DNA from: Phormidium tanganyikae FI6-MK23
GTDB taxonomy: Bacteria; Cyanobacteriota; Cyanobacteriia; Leptolyngbyales; Leptolyngbyaceae
Direction of reading: 5' to 3'
Length of the DNA stretch: 64,000 nt
Assembly (NCBI GenBank): GCA_019359175.1
Contig: JAHHHU010000001.1
Coordinates: 248,001-312,000, forward strand
The notes under the pieces were generated by a model, which ran no database searches, was not told where the DNA came from, and saw only the letters and a list, made by a program, of their open reading frames with translations. The position numbers were made by a program, and so were the translations under genes. This document shows positions 390 to 7,425 of this stretch, in pieces; position 1 is the stretch's first letter; each line of letters opens with the position of its first letter.

Positions 390-731
390 ATGCCTCACAA
401 AATGTCTCAAAATCACAAATACCAAACGGCTCAGAAAGACCATCGCGCTCATCAACGCTATCGTGACGACGCTCCGAAAACGATGCTGACTCGACTGATC
501 GAGCAAGATGCTCCCCTCTTCTCTCATAGCCAACTCGTACTGATGTACGGATTCTTCCAAGCAGAGATGGCTCCCGAAGCCAACCAAGGCGTTGCTTCCT
601 GGATCAAAGATTGCATTCGACAGTATGGATTACCGAGCCTTGTCCGGTTTGATTCTCACCGTCGCGCTCAAATCTTCCGACGAGATCAGTTTCAACCTTG
701 GCTTGAACCATTGATGGATCAAGCTTGCTAA
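390..731 (+). CDS. hypothetical protein, 113 aa
   Basis: I do not recognise the family. The start is well supported: AAGGAG lies four bases upstream of the ATG. The first 30 residues are very rich in His, Gln, Lys and Arg, suggesting a disordered basic tail. The remainder (about residues 33-113) is a compact mixed helical domain with the segment SWIKDCIRQYGLPSLVRFD and a basic stretch (HRRAQIFRRDQF) before the C-terminus. There is no signal peptide or membrane segment, so it is probably cytoplasmic. It stands alone, about 180 bp upstream of the deaminase gene. A small nucleic-acid-binding protein is possible from its charge, but that is only a guess. Confidence 0.7.
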   Translation: MPHKMSQNHKYQTAQKDHRAHQRYRDDAPKTMLTRLIEQDAPLFSHSQLVLMYGFFQAEMAPEANQGVASWIKDCIRQYGLPSLVRFDSHRRAQIFRRDQFQPWLEPLMDQAC

Positions 732-911: not shown

Positions 912-2171
912 ATGCCGAATTATGACCTTCTGCTTCGTCACTGTCAGTTACTTCGATCGCCGGACGTTTCCGAATTAGTGGATGTTGCGATTCATGCGGG
1001 TGAGATTGTCGAGATTGCCCCTCACATTGAAGCAACAGCGGAGATGGAACTAGAAATTCAAGCGCGTCTAGTCAGTCCCCCGTTTGTGGAATCGCACATT
1101 CACTTAGACTCTGCTCTCACAGCAGGTGGACCCCGCTGGAACCAAAGCGGCACATTGTTTGAGGGCATCGAGATTTGGCGAGAACGCAAGCAAAACCTCT
1201 CGCTAGAAGACGTGAAACAAAGAGCGATCGAGACTCTGAAACAGCAGGCGTTGCAGGGGGTTCTTTTTGTGCGAAGTCATGCGGATGTGAGTGAGGCAAG
1301 CTTAACGGCGCTCAAAGCCTTGCTTGAAGTCCGTGAGGAAGTAAAAGATTGGATTACGTTACAAGTCGTCGCTTTTCCCCAAGACGGTATCTATGGCGGG
1401 GCGAAGAATGATGAATTGATCGAGGAAGCGATGCGATTGGGGGCGGATGTCGTTGGAGGCATTCCGCACTATGAACTGACGCGCGAGGATGGAGTGCGGT
1501 CGGTTAATCGAATCTTTGACCTGGCGGAAAAGTACGATCGCTTAATCGACATCCACTGTGATGAAATCGACGACGATCAATCCCGATTTTTAGAAGTCGT
1601 TGCCGCCTGTGCGATTCGTACCGAAATGGGGTCGAAAGTTAGTGCGAGTCACACGACTGCATTTGGTTCTTATAACAATGCGTATGCGTTCAAACTCCTC
1701 GGCTTTCTCAAACGCACACAGCTCAATTTCATCTCCAACCCACTGATCAACATTACGCTGCAAGGTCGGACTGATACTTATCCCAAACGGCGCGGCGTAA
1801 CGCGAGTAAAAGAACTCTGGCAACAAGGAATGAATGTGAGCTTGGGTCACGATTGCGTTCAAGATCCTTGGTACTCACTAGGGACAGGCAATATGCTTGA
1901 TGTGGCATCAATGGCAATTCACGTCTGCCAAATGACCGGAAGAGATGAGATGGATGCGTGTTACGACATGGTGACTTGGGGCGGCGCGAAGACTTTGAAC
2001 ATTGCAGATCAGTATGGTGTTGAGGTGAGCAAGCCTGCAAATTTGATTGTGTTGGATGCGATCGACAGATACGATGCAATTCGCCGACGTGCCACGGTGC
2101 AATATGTCATTTCTCAAGGCAAACTCTTGGCACAGACTGAGCCGCCTAAACCAAAATGGCGCGGGAATTAG
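912..2171 (+). CDS. codA: CodA-family cytosine deaminase, predicted 5-methylcytosine type
   Basis: A 419-aa amidohydrolase that aligns along its length with E. coli cytosine deaminase CodA, which hydrolyses cytosine to uracil and ammonia in pyrimidine salvage. Visible metal and catalytic residues are His62 and His64 (HIHLD), His215 and Glu218 (IHCDE), His247 (SHTTAF) and Asp314 (GHD). The numbering is offset by one from E. coli. The residue after the metal-binding Asp is Cys315 (GHDCV), whereas E. coli has Asp314 (GHDDV). From memory, CodA homologues lacking that Asp were shown to deaminate 5-methylcytosine to thymine. I therefore infer a base-salvage enzyme that may prefer 5-methylcytosine. 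There is no signal peptide, so it is cytoplasmic. No permease gene such as codB is adjacent, and the gene appears monocistronic. Confidence 0.93.
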   Translation: MPNYDLLLRHCQLLRSPDVSELVDVAIHAGEIVEIAPHIEATAEMELEIQARLVSPPFVESHIHLDSALTAGGPRWNQSGTLFEGIEIWRERKQNLSLEDVKQRAIETLKQQALQGVLFVRSHADVSEASLTALKALLEVREEVKDWITLQVVAFPQDGIYGGAKNDELIEEAMRLGADVVGGIPHYELTREDGVRSVNRIFDLAEKYDRLIDIHCDEIDDDQSRFLEVVAACAIRTEMGSKVSASHTTAFGSYNNAYAFKLLGFLKRTQLNFISNPLINITLQGRTDTYPKRRGVTRVKELWQQGMNVSLGHDCVQDPWYSLGTGNMLDVASMAIHVCQMTGRDEMDACYDMVTWGGAKTLNIADQYGVEVSKPANLIVLDAIDRYDAIRRRATVQYVISQGKLLAQTEPPKPKWRGN

Positions 2172-2262: not shown

Positions 2263-2493
2263 ATGAGCTATCAGGAAATTATCACGATCGAGCCAGACAA
2301 ACGGGGCGGAAAACCCTGCATCCGACGAATGAGAATCACTGTTTACGATGTCTTAGGCTGGTTAGCGACTGGAATGTCTCATGCTGAAATTCTAGAGGAC
2401 TTTCCCGAACTGACAGAAGCAGACATCCGAGCTTGTTTAGAATTTGCTGCCGATCGTGATCATCGCCTAGTTGCTTCAGTGGGTGCTGCTTGA
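2263..2493 (+). CDS. DUF433 family protein, antitoxin-like
   Basis: A 76-aa protein with the DUF433 signature: an ITIEPDKRGGKPCIRRMRI start, then a helix-turn-helix-like stretch (TVYDVLGWLATGMSHAEILEDFPELTEADIRA, residues about 27-58). DUF433 proteins are usually encoded just before DUF5615 PIN-like proteins and are thought to be the antitoxin and DNA-binding half. Here the stop overlaps the start of the DUF5615 frame (TTGA at 2490-2493), the usual translational coupling. The reading frame is intact. Because the downstream partner is frameshifted, this protein may now be an orphan. Confidence 0.85.
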   Translation: MSYQEIITIEPDKRGGKPCIRRMRITVYDVLGWLATGMSHAEILEDFPELTEADIRACLEFAADRDHRLVASVGAA

Positions 2494-2821
2494 AACTTCT
2501 CTTCGATAAAATTTGAGCCGAAAGTTAGTGAATCGATTGGCAGACATTTTTCCTAATTCCAGTCATGTTCAGTTTCATCAAATGGCAGAAGAAACGGATA
2601 CGGAAATCTGGGAATTCGCGAAAGCAAATGACTTTTGTATTGTGACTCAGGATGCAGATTTTGCTGAACGAAGTCGTTTGTATGGTTCACCGCCTAAAGT
2701 TGTATGGCTTCGATGCGGGAATGCACCGTCTCAGCAAGTGGAAGATTTGATTCAGGCTGGAGCAAAAGCAATCCAAGAGTTGCTCGATAATCGCAACTTG
2801 CATTGTCTAGAGTTGCAGTAA
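2490..2821 (+). pseudogene. DUF5615 PIN-like toxin gene, frameshifted near its 5' end
   Basis: The family normally begins KLLFDENLS, where the Asp belongs to the PIN-like active site. From TTG at 2490 the frame reads LKLLFDKI and stops at TGA 2514. One base shifted, from 2508, it reads ENLSRKLV and continues for about 105 codons to TAA at 2821, with the later conserved acidic motifs (ANDFCIVTQDADFAERS). Restoring one G after the GAT at 2505-2507 rebuilds KLLFDENLSRKLVNRL exactly, so a single-base deletion is the simplest explanation. A protein starting at the internal TTG 2513 would lack the first active-site Asp. Alternatives are programmed slippage on the short A run at 2508-2510 or a sequencing error. 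Confidence 0.8.
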
Positions 2822-4447: not shown

Positions 4448-5434
4448 ATGGGCGAATTTCACTTCAGACCGCTTTGTCATAGTTGGGTAGCATTGCATCC
4501 TCATCCCAGAGGGGTTGTTCAGTTCATCGGTGGTGCTTTTTTTGGTTCGTTTCCGACAGTTGCTTATCGATATTTGCTGCGATCGATATTCGAGGCGGGT
4601 TACACAGTTGTTGCATTGCCGTTTCGGTTTAGTTTTCGTCATTGGTCGCTAGCAATCGAGCTTCTAAAAGAGCAAGATGCACTCAGACAAGAACTCGCCG
4701 CGATCGCAAAGCATCTTAACTATGATCACGAACTCTACCAGGATAAAACGAACTACTACTGGGTGGGTCACAGTTTAGGATGTAAGTACATTGCGTTGCT
4801 AGAGTTGTTAAGCAGTGAGCAATGGCAGGAGATTTTGCCTCATTGTGTGGAAGCCCATCAGATTGAGGAAGTTAAACAAGCGATCGAGCGTCTTTCAATG
4901 GATTCCGTTTCGATTAAAGGTCAGCCATCGCTGTTGCTTGCTCCTGATATTTCTGATACTGAAAGTGCGATTCCTGTTCGATTTCTGGCACAGCTTTTAG
5001 ACAAGCTCAAACTTGGTGTATTGCAGACACGCGCTCAAACTCAGTGCTTAATCGAGCAAAGTGATTTATTTAATTTGACGGGTTTGATTTCTTTCGATCG
5101 AGATACGATCGCCGGAAGCCTCGCCAATTCCCAGCGACAACCTTTGAGCCAGAACGATGTGTTGTGGTTTTTGTTCCAGCTCAAACAGCGCCACTATCCT
5201 TTATTACATCAAGAGCTAGCAGGTAAACATTTAGCACCTGTCGGGGTTCAAATCGATAGATGGGTGGTGGACTTTAACCCCTGGGATAAGTTTGCAGAGC
5301 CGATCTCGGGTCGTACATTAGAAGCGATCGTGCTTCAGTTTCTCGATCGTCTACGTCAAAGACAACAGCGATTAGAACCATCAAACAGCGTTACAATCGA
5401 ACCAAATATGCATATGCGTCAGAGTTCACGATGA
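4448..5434 (+). CDS. DUF1350 family alpha/beta-hydrolase-like protein
   Basis: A 328-aa protein matching DUF1350, found in cyanobacteria and plant plastids. It has an alpha/beta-hydrolase pattern: an N-terminal beta region with VVQFIGGAFFGS (residues about 24-35), and the nucleophile elbow GHSLGCK at about residues 103-109. The Ser in GHSLG is intact, so a serine-hydrolase (lipase or esterase-like) activity is possible, but I know of no established substrate. AGAGG at 4436-4440 supports the ATG at 4448. Its stop overlaps the start of the Uma2 gene by four bases (ATGA), so the two are probably co-transcribed. It is predicted soluble. Confidence 0.85.
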   Translation: MGEFHFRPLCHSWVALHPHPRGVVQFIGGAFFGSFPTVAYRYLLRSIFEAGYTVVALPFRFSFRHWSLAIELLKEQDALRQELAAIAKHLNYDHELYQDKTNYYWVGHSLGCKYIALLELLSSEQWQEILPHCVEAHQIEEVKQAIERLSMDSVSIKGQPSLLLAPDISDTESAIPVRFLAQLLDKLKLGVLQTRAQTQCLIEQSDLFNLTGLISFDRDTIAGSLANSQRQPLSQNDVLWFLFQLKQRHYPLLHQELAGKHLAPVGVQIDRWVVDFNPWDKFAEPISGRTLEAIVLQFLDRLRQRQQRLEPSNSVTIEPNMHMRQSSR

Positions 5435-5973
5435 AAACGTTGGCGAAATGGTCGATCGAGGAATATCACCGCATGATTGAGGCGGGAGTGTTGTGCGATC
5501 GTTCGGTGGAACTGTTGGCAGGTGAGATTGTTGAAATGAGTCCAGAAACACCGATCCATTACAGAACCGCAAAACGAGGAGCTAAATATTTAGAGCAGTT
5601 GCTTGAGGGACGCGCAGAAGTTCGATTTAACGGGCCGATTACGCTGGCGAATTCTGAACCTGAGCCAGATATCGCGATCGTACAGTTACCGGAGGAACAA
5701 TACCGAGATCAACATCCCAATGCTGCACACATCTATTTCCTGATTGAAGTTGCAAAAACCAGTTTGAAGAAAGATACCGATTTGAAAGCTACGATTTATG
5801 CGACTGCTGGAATTCAAGAATATTGGGTTCTGAATTTAGCGGCTCGACACATCTTCGTATTTCAAGAACCTCAAAACGGAAAGTATCAAACAGAGCGAAT
5901 TTTAACTTCAGGAACGATCGTACCCTTGGCATTTCCAGAGATTGCGATATCGATCAATCAGCTTTTAGAATAA
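5431..5973 (+). CDS. Uma2 family (DUF820) restriction-endonuclease-like protein
   Basis: A 180-aa member of the Uma2/DUF820 family, hugely expanded in cyanobacteria, with a PD-(D/E)XK nuclease fold. Visible motifs are EPEPDIAIV (the Asp of the fold), then FLIEVAKTSLKKDTDLKATIYATAGIQEYWVLN, which carries the acidic residue and Lys pattern of the active site. The fold is established for the family; the biological role is not, and many copies sit beside unrelated genes. It overlaps the DUF1350 gene by four bases (ATGA), so it is probably translationally coupled. The frame is full length and intact. Confidence 0.9.
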   Translation: MKTLAKWSIEEYHRMIEAGVLCDRSVELLAGEIVEMSPETPIHYRTAKRGAKYLEQLLEGRAEVRFNGPITLANSEPEPDIAIVQLPEEQYRDQHPNAAHIYFLIEVAKTSLKKDTDLKATIYATAGIQEYWVLNLAARHIFVFQEPQNGKYQTERILTSGTIVPLAFPEIAISINQLLE

Positions 5974-6696: not shown

Positions 6697-7425
6697 ATGT
6701 CAGTTGGTCAAAAACTCTACGAAGGCAAAGCCAAAATCCTCTACAGCACCGACGATCTAGACGTGCTGCTGACCTACTTTAAAGATGATGCAACGGCGTT
6801 TAATGCTCAGAAGCGCGGCAGCATTCAGGGAAAAGGGGAAATTAACTGCGCGATCGCATCTCATCTTTTCAAATTGATGGAAAAGAACGGGATTCCGACG
6901 CATTTTCTCGATCGAACTTCTGGGAACGAAATGCGCGTGCGATCGGTCAAGATCATCCCATTAGAGGTCGTCGTCAGGAATATTGCCGCCGGGAGCCTCT
7001 GTCAACAGACAGGACTGAAGTTAGGGACGATACTTAATCCTCCTCTCGTCGAGTTCTACCTGAAGGATGATGCACTTGGCGATCCTTTGATTACGGTCGA
7101 TCGCTTACGGGTACTTGATCCAGCCTCCGCCAATCAAGTGGATCAATTAAGAAGCATGGCAACGCGGATCAATTCTGTGCTGCAATCCTTCTTTGAGCAA
7201 TGTGGCATTACGCTTGTTGACTTCAAACTCGAATTCGGTACTGATTCTCAAGGGCGGCTTCTACTTGCCGATGAAATCAGCCCAGATACTTGTCGGTTGT
7301 GGAACCAGGCGGAAACCGACCCCGATCGACGAGTTATGGACAAAGATCGCTTCCGTCGCGACCTCGGAAATGTGGAGGATGCGTATCGGCAAGTGATGGA
7401 AAGGGTACTGGAACAAACTGTATGA
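6697..7425 (+). CDS. purC: phosphoribosylaminoimidazole-succinocarboxamide synthase (SAICAR synthetase)
   Basis: A 242-aa enzyme of de novo purine synthesis joining CAIR and aspartate with ATP to give SAICAR. Diagnostic stretches are LYEGKAKILYSTDD at the N-terminus (nucleotide loop), VVVRNIAAGSL near residue 92, LVDFKLEFG, and LLADEISPDTCRLW near residue 190. Length is normal and the frame intact. It sits just upstream of the omp85-lpx genes, a neighbour order I have seen in other cyanobacteria. The 139-bp gap to omp85 contains a perfect palindrome and probably a separate promoter. The enzyme is cytoplasmic. Confidence 0.97.
   Translation: MSVGQKLYEGKAKILYSTDDLDVLLTYFKDDATAFNAQKRGSIQGKGEINCAIASHLFKLMEKNGIPTHFLDRTSGNEMRVRSVKIIPLEVVVRNIAAGSLCQQTGLKLGTILNPPLVEFYLKDDALGDPLITVDRLRVLDPASANQVDQLRSMATRINSVLQSFFEQCGITLVDFKLEFGTDSQGRLLLADEISPDTCRLWNQAETDPDRRVMDKDRFRRDLGNVEDAYRQVMERVLEQTV

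Follow-up and report, generated by a model that had tools for sequence, protein, structure and literature searches.

The codA-type gene of Phormidium tanganyikae FI6-MK23 lies in a window of 64,000 nucleotides, by which the whole stretch of DNA analysed here is meant, and its product is most likely a metal-dependent pyrimidine-base deaminase of the CodA family, as predicted from the sequence. Cys315 of the protein takes the place of an Asp by which E. coli CodA keeps out the methyl group, and deamination of both cytosine and 5-methylcytosine is therefore its most likely activity. With slightly better than even confidence, we read it as a CodA-type base-salvage deaminase with a pocket that Cys315 leaves open at C5. 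Activity on 5-methylcytosine is thus put forward as a fair and reasonable prediction.

The open reading frame is intact, running from ATG to TAG over 419 codons for amino acids with no internal stops. The protein scored 570.8 bits against the NCBIfam cytosine deaminase model PRK09230 (cut-off 483) and 501.2 bits against PRK07572 (cut-off 438), which is also named cytosine deaminase. Membership in the PRK09230 family was indicated by the score above the curated cut-off together with a complete HxH / Q / HxxE / H / D set. Both this score and the uniform presence of the Cys among related rows go well past what chance would give. The preliminary description had placed a CodA homologue at 912-2171, which the exact reading frame and the PRK09230 score bore out. 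PF07969/PF01979 were the Pfam domains found, and the nearest PDB sequences in a phmmer search were E. coli CodA and its variants (E ~1e-141), followed by Klebsiella 4r7w. An AlphaFold model built from 15 alignment rows (mean pLDDT 78.4, pTM 0.84) found its best PDB matches in the chains of E. coli CodA (TM up to 0.87, rmsd ~4), with the 4r7w set next. The stretches 67-92, 248-254, 280-296 and 315-324 had a pLDDT below 50, which affects the pocket, so no geometry was taken from the model and it confirmed the fold alone.

Coordinates of the codA-type gene and of its active-site and pocket motifs in the window
Feature	Position	Strand	Basis or remark
codA-type cytosine deaminase gene, 419 aa, intact	912..2171	+	ORF; PRK09230.1 570.8 bits; PF07969/PF01979; PDB CodA chains
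HIH, residues 62-64, metal ligands H62 and H64 (E. coli H61/H63)	1095..1103	+	column comparison
Q157-D158 of FPQDG (E. coli Q156-E157); D158 common to the other Cys clade	1380..1385	+	column comparison
HCDE, residues 215-218; H215 metal ligand, E218 acid/base	1554..1565	+	column comparison
H247 (E. coli H246)	1650..1652	+	column comparison
I279-N280-I281-T282	1746..1757	+	column comparison
GHDCV, residues 312-316	1845..1859	+	Cys315 codon 1854-1856; Asp314 codon 1851-1853, metal/catalytic Asp

Column comparison confirmed the earlier statement that all metal ligands are kept (H62, H64, H215 and D314), and the catalytic residues Q157, E218 and H247 are kept as well, as is W320. The motif around Cys315 reads LGHDCVQDPWYS. 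Alignments by phmmer to CodA and to PDB entries for the variants D314A and D314S agreed in placing Cys315 at the position of E. coli Asp314, as had been proposed; the number given for the Cys was correct, whereas the GHDCV span had been set one residue short, at 313-316. By analogy to the mechanism of CodA, a water molecule activated by the metal at H62, H64, H215 and D314 would attack C4 of the base, which Q157 would position while E218, H247 and D314 shuttle protons and ammonia leaves. Since E. coli CodA shuts out a 5-methyl group by means of the Asp that Cys315 replaces here, the pocket would be open at C5, and cytosine would be converted to uracil and 5-methylcytosine to thymine. The enzyme would probably serve to reclaim free bases, whether from turnover of the cell or from its surroundings, as a supply of nitrogen and uracil, rather than to recycle methylated genomic DNA in a dedicated way.

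Passages of PMC6186785 state that CodA deaminates essentially no 5-methylcytosine. According to them, the 5-methylcytosine deaminase of K. pneumoniae has Ser for the discriminating Asp, which they number 315, and an exchange of this Asp for Ala confers 5-methylcytosine activity on CodA. Taking replacement of the discriminating Asp as the trait of bacterial 5-methylcytosine deaminases, as these passages of PMC6186785 do, the window protein has it. Compared with the Klebsiella enzyme, the sole tested enzyme in the comparison, it differs in having Cys for Ser and in pocket residues 277-279. Two homologues from Rhodobacterales, those of Ruegeria and Tritonibacter, were fetched and both carry Cys. 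A study of 2014 is said to have tested three 5-methylcytosine deaminases, Kpn00632, Rsp0341 and NCgl0075, and the Rhodobacter enzyme tested in it reportedly carries Cys. Of these three names, PMC6186785 mentions Kpn00632 once and the others not at all, and none appears in 7 further papers listed for them. In a literature search largely outside subscription journals, no published assay was found for any enzyme of the cyanobacterial clade, and the 7 papers that use the phrase 5-methylcytosine deaminase include none that is cyanobacterial by title; cytosine deaminase, 5-methylcytosine, thymine and cyanobacteria were mentioned together in one review of genetic tools.

Cys is the standard residue of the cyanobacterial clade as sampled and no local oddity. 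It was found at the discriminating position in all 102 cyanobacterial rows with more than 40% identity that cover the motif, drawn from a list of 111 loci that favours close kin. Counted among them are the locus of the window itself, a fragment (L023) and no fewer than four duplicates (L003/L040, L004/L053, L005/L050 and L007/L107), and 80 of the compared loci are the best 80 of 215 relatives, each with at least 71% identity. The Asp of E. coli CodA is absent from the window protein and was confined to one branch in the rows sampled, so that it marks E. coli CodA and does not define the family. The other nine of the 111 loci, and a second place in L061, hold an Asn-type paralogue with 24-29% identity. 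Such a second, CodA/AtzC-like gene of the Asn type is also present in the same genome as the window (L002, G000:C56:9161-10276; 25-26% identity). A search of the phylum gave any match in 120 of 386 genomes and a close gene (at least 45% identity) in 21, a count from which broken pieces in G229 and G203 were left out and in which the copy of G039 has an internal stop and that of G354 is split over two frames. Many of the 120 matching genomes have a low-identity match at the level of the paralogue, in which the residue was inspected at 10 places. The distribution of the close codA gene in cyanobacteria is patchy, and the carriers with names are mainly filamentous Leptolyngbya-, Phormidium- and Oscillatoria-like strains, along with metagenome-assembled genomes.

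Outside the cyanobacteria, plasmid records were sampled (717 with a match, 353 at 1e-60), and 23 homologues were picked by hand for spread rather than at random. Among these 23, nine have Cys (Ruegeria, Tritonibacter, two Sinorhizobium, Phyllobacterium, Azospirillum, Cupriavidus, Roseateles and Haloarcula), eight have Asp (E. coli, Vibrio, L. brevis, L. fermentum, Embleya, Aeromonas, Proteus and K. aerogenes) and six have Ser (K. pneumoniae, Enterobacter, Burkholderia, Halomonas, E. faecalis and R. etli 8C-3). The K. pneumoniae protein shows no difference over 412 aa from PDB 4r7w, which is titled 5-methylcytosine deaminase. The R. etli 8C-3 plasmid protein (L173), with the motif GQDSCMDPW, has Ser within the alpha/betaproteobacterial Cys clade, a natural change at the discriminating position.

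Pocket residues were compared in CodA numbering, using the CodA residues named in passages of the AtzC paper (PMC4577212) and neighbours such as 157 and 281, in a table that preceded the addition of seven plasmid rows. The main cyanobacterial clade (98 rows) was nearly uniform, with S66 in 97, D157 in 98, I278 in 98, T281 in 97 and C314 in 98 rows. The other Cys clade (7 rows, of which L021 and L022 are cyanobacterial) had Ala in five and Ser in two at 66, Asp in all seven at 157, Ile in five and Val in two at 278, Thr in four, Val in two and Met in one at 281, and Cys in all seven at 314. The five Asp-type rows showed Thr (3) or Ala (2) at 66, Glu (5) at 157, Val (5) at 278, His (3), Asn (1) or Thr (1) at 281 and Asp (5) at 314, and the five Ser-type rows Ala (4) or Tyr (1), Glu (3), Asp (1) or Asn (1), Glu (5), His (4) or Phe (1), and Ser (5) at the same positions. 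From these counts, the cyanobacterial pocket (S67, D158, I279, T282 and C315 in the window protein) most resembles that of the other Cys clade and is unlike that of the Klebsiella enzyme; I279 and T282 in particular agree with the majority residues of that clade, in contrast to V278/H281 of E. coli or Glu278 of the Kpn00632 type.

Two maximum-likelihood trees were drawn from an alignment of 125 rows, made after removal of the fragment L023, the 365-aa L019 and the window's own row L001. Tree 1 comprised 67 rows, with the cyanobacterial rows thinned at 80% identity and every column used. Tree 2 comprised 53 rows, with the long-branched E. faecalis and about half of the cyanobacterial Cys rows taken out, the seven plasmid rows added and the pocket columns blanked. 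When the Asn paralogues served as outgroup, both trees placed Haloarcula (Cys) first and then the alpha-/betaproteobacterial Cys clade, which includes the cyanobacterial L021 and, in tree 2, the R. etli row (Ser). The main cyanobacterial Cys clade (bootstrap/SH-aLRT 95/98 in tree 1 and 100/99 in tree 2) was in both trees the sister of the Asp/Ser branch, a grouping with support of 89/82 and 98/97, respectively. Four changes at the discriminating position were required on tree 2. With the Asn rows as outgroup, a basal Cys is the simplest reading by parsimony, with Asp derived within one branch; the parsimony was done by hand, with few non-cyanobacterial rows and with long branches of the outgroup and of Haloarcula. 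Thus, the CodA family probably started out with Cys and acquired Asp later, although convergence may also have produced Cys in separate clades.

An arrangement with the cyanobacterial and alpha/beta-type Cys rows on one side of a single branch was rejected (p-AU 4e-79) in a test that placed R. etli (Ser) and Haloarcula (Cys) among the outsiders, which fits an ancestral Cys but convergence as well. Only tentatively would we extend the history to function: acceptance of 5-methylcytosine might be as old as the Cys and have been retained by the cyanobacterial and alpha/betaproteobacterial enzymes, while the strict specificity of E. coli CodA for cytosine might have come with a later change from Cys to Asp, and Ser enzymes, that of Klebsiella among them, might have reopened the pocket.

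The surroundings of the gene point to no substrate. Neighbours were compared over 82 loci (the loci of the best 80 of 215 relatives, that of the window's own genome and one from the surveyed genomes), with reading frames from a simple caller and the 25 commonest families judged by eye; no base permease, nucleoside hydrolase or pyrimidine-salvage gene was among these families. The commonest was kinase-like by eye (17/82 loci), followed by transglutaminase-like (14) and CpeT/CpcT (12) families. An ABC ATPase family occurred at nine loci, with three members within 1.5 kb, and a purC-like family at five, four of them within 1.5 kb; a purC-like gene is also seen by eye at window 6697-7425. NtcA-like GTAN8TAC sites were not enriched within 300 bases upstream (3/78 loci versus 112/3512 background windows), and none was found in the window.

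Several neighbours were observed in their own right. Genes of the CpeT/CpcT type (phycobilin lyase family) lie directly upstream of codA on the same strand at the 12 loci, with a median gap of 8 bases, L044:7390-7992 being the one member matched to Pfam. In the window, a 113-aa reading frame at 390-731 (+) had no Pfam match and by eye resembles one upstream of codA in an eight-locus family (e.g., L034). Just downstream, at 2263-2821 (+), DUF433 (76 aa) is followed by DUF5615/PIN-like (102 aa), which looks like a small toxin-antitoxin-type pair, and a Uma2-family protein is encoded at 5431-5973 (+).

Among the salvage genes of the genome, PF14681 uracil phosphoribosyltransferase was represented by two genes over the cut-off and two more below it, and PF02133 cytosine/purine permease by one match that scored 92.6 bits (cut-off 23.5). 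This last gene shares a contig with codA, at a distance of about 104 kb. PF00265 thymidine kinase was not found in the genome, a search in which 8 of 14 control genomes matched and the control cyanobacterium did not. A use for uracil is therefore visible, and less so one for thymine.

It had also been proposed that the strain recycles the 5-methylcytosine of its own DNA. That the protein is a specialised 5-methylcytosine deaminase for the cell's own methylated DNA appears very improbable, even though the Cys at the discriminating position speaks for it, as does the density of CGATCG, which stood up to counting (348 in the window versus 14.5 expected from base composition; GCGATCGC was counted 52 times). 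Nor is the genome, which is 96.3% complete with 5.74 Mb in 77 contigs, devoid of a C5-cytosine DNA methylase, one PF00145 match of 311 aa being present, and at this completeness a further methylase gene may have been missed. However, this sole match directly adjoins an RE_HindVP gene (462-bit match; L114:1426-3455, G000:C10), and type II methyltransferase and type II restriction enzyme models fitted the pair best in PADLOC. M.Ssp6803I is described in passages of PMC6604393 as standing outside any restriction system, and the PF00145 gene, judged by its location, thus does not look like an orphan CGATCG methylase of the kind expected. Passages of Elhai 2015 (PMC4390886) moreover report that CGATCG methylases are of the m5C type in groups A and B of the cyanobacteria but of the m4C type in the remaining groups, to either of which sets the host may belong, and name four HIP1-rich strains without a recognisable CGATCG methylase. 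Three PF01555 matches were found in the genome; L133 has SPPY and the other two have DPPY. Across 386 genomes, a set that includes other classes and was not corrected for kinship, carriage of codA was not associated with PF00145 (15/21 carriers versus 218/365 others, Fisher P = 0.36; 233 genomes match in all, 223 of them over the cut-off), and six of the 21 carriers are without a match (G060, G185, G027, G170, G177 and G286, the last inferred from its absence among the matches). The lack of a PF00265 match for thymine reuse also argues against such recycling. In sum, recycling of CGATCG methylation in this strain found no support in this analysis. RNA is another possible source of 5-methylcytosine, and one gene of the RsmB/F family (RNA m5C type) is present in the genome.

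Two other readings concern the substrate itself. The protein might be a plain cytosine deaminase that inherited the Cys with no effect on tolerance at C5 and accepts 5-methylcytosine poorly or not at all. The better score for the PRK09230 subfamily than for PRK07572 points this way, as does a pocket that is otherwise CodA-like (L278, N280, W320 and Y321) and unlike T277/E278/S279 of the Kpn00632 type. Yet it is Asp that passages of PMC6186785 report as excluding 5-methylcytosine, and an invariant Cys in the clade as sampled would be unexpected for a neutral residue, so that we regard this reading as rather unlikely. Less likely still is a deaminase whose true substrate is a different base, for instance isoguanine or a pyrimidine bearing damage or a modification, and which acts only incidentally on cytosine and 5-methylcytosine. 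The Cys may favour some other substrate, E. coli codA is annotated as cytosine/isoguanine deaminase, passages of PMC12828455 report broad substrate scopes in CodA-cluster enzymes, and the neighbourhood gives no evidence for the use of cytosine. That the related Asn-type paralogue of the same genome may cover other substrates also counts for this reading. Against this, the residues with which CodA holds cytosine are conserved except for Cys315, S67 and I279. N4-methylcytosine is not converted by E. coli CodA according to passages of PMC11898903.

To our knowledge, such 5-methylcytosine deaminases have been assayed from few bacteria only. A cyanobacterial clade that is all-Cys as sampled offers many natural enzymes in which to study the gain and loss of 5-methyl tolerance, and it warns that a plain cytosine deaminase label may be incomplete. 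A 5-methyl-tolerant pocket would also bear on the sensitivity of these strains to 5-fluorocytosine.

Compared with known systems, the window protein is closest to E. coli CodA (PDB 1k6w, 3o7u), with which it shares 54-55% identity over residues 15-413, the fold, the metal and catalytic residues and the lid DPWY. It differs in Cys315 for Asp314, Ser for T66, Asp for E157, Ile for V278 and Thr for H281, and no codB was recognised beside it, whereas E. coli codA follows codB. With the K. pneumoniae 5-methylcytosine deaminase (PDB 4r7w, 4r85, 4r88), which we take to be Kpn00632, in keeping with PMC6186785, it has in common 48-52% identity and the replacement of Asp314 by a small residue. That enzyme has Ser, and Thr/Glu/Ser at 277-279, where the window protein has Cys and Leu/Ile/Asn; a PucR-type regulator gene and codB precede the gene that encodes it in Klebsiella. 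AtzC and the Asn-type paralogue L002 are alike in amidohydrolase fold and metal ligands and differ by Asn at the discriminating position. The plasmid-borne Cys-type deaminases of alpha- and betaproteobacteria (Ruegeria, Tritonibacter, Sinorhizobium, Phyllobacterium, Azospirillum, Cupriavidus and Roseateles), near which Rsp0341 presumably belongs, resemble the window protein in the Cys, in FPQDG where inspected and mostly in Ile 278 and Thr 281; they form a separate clade with 44-47% identity to it, and five of their genes adjoin genes for an ABC permease or a BMP protein.
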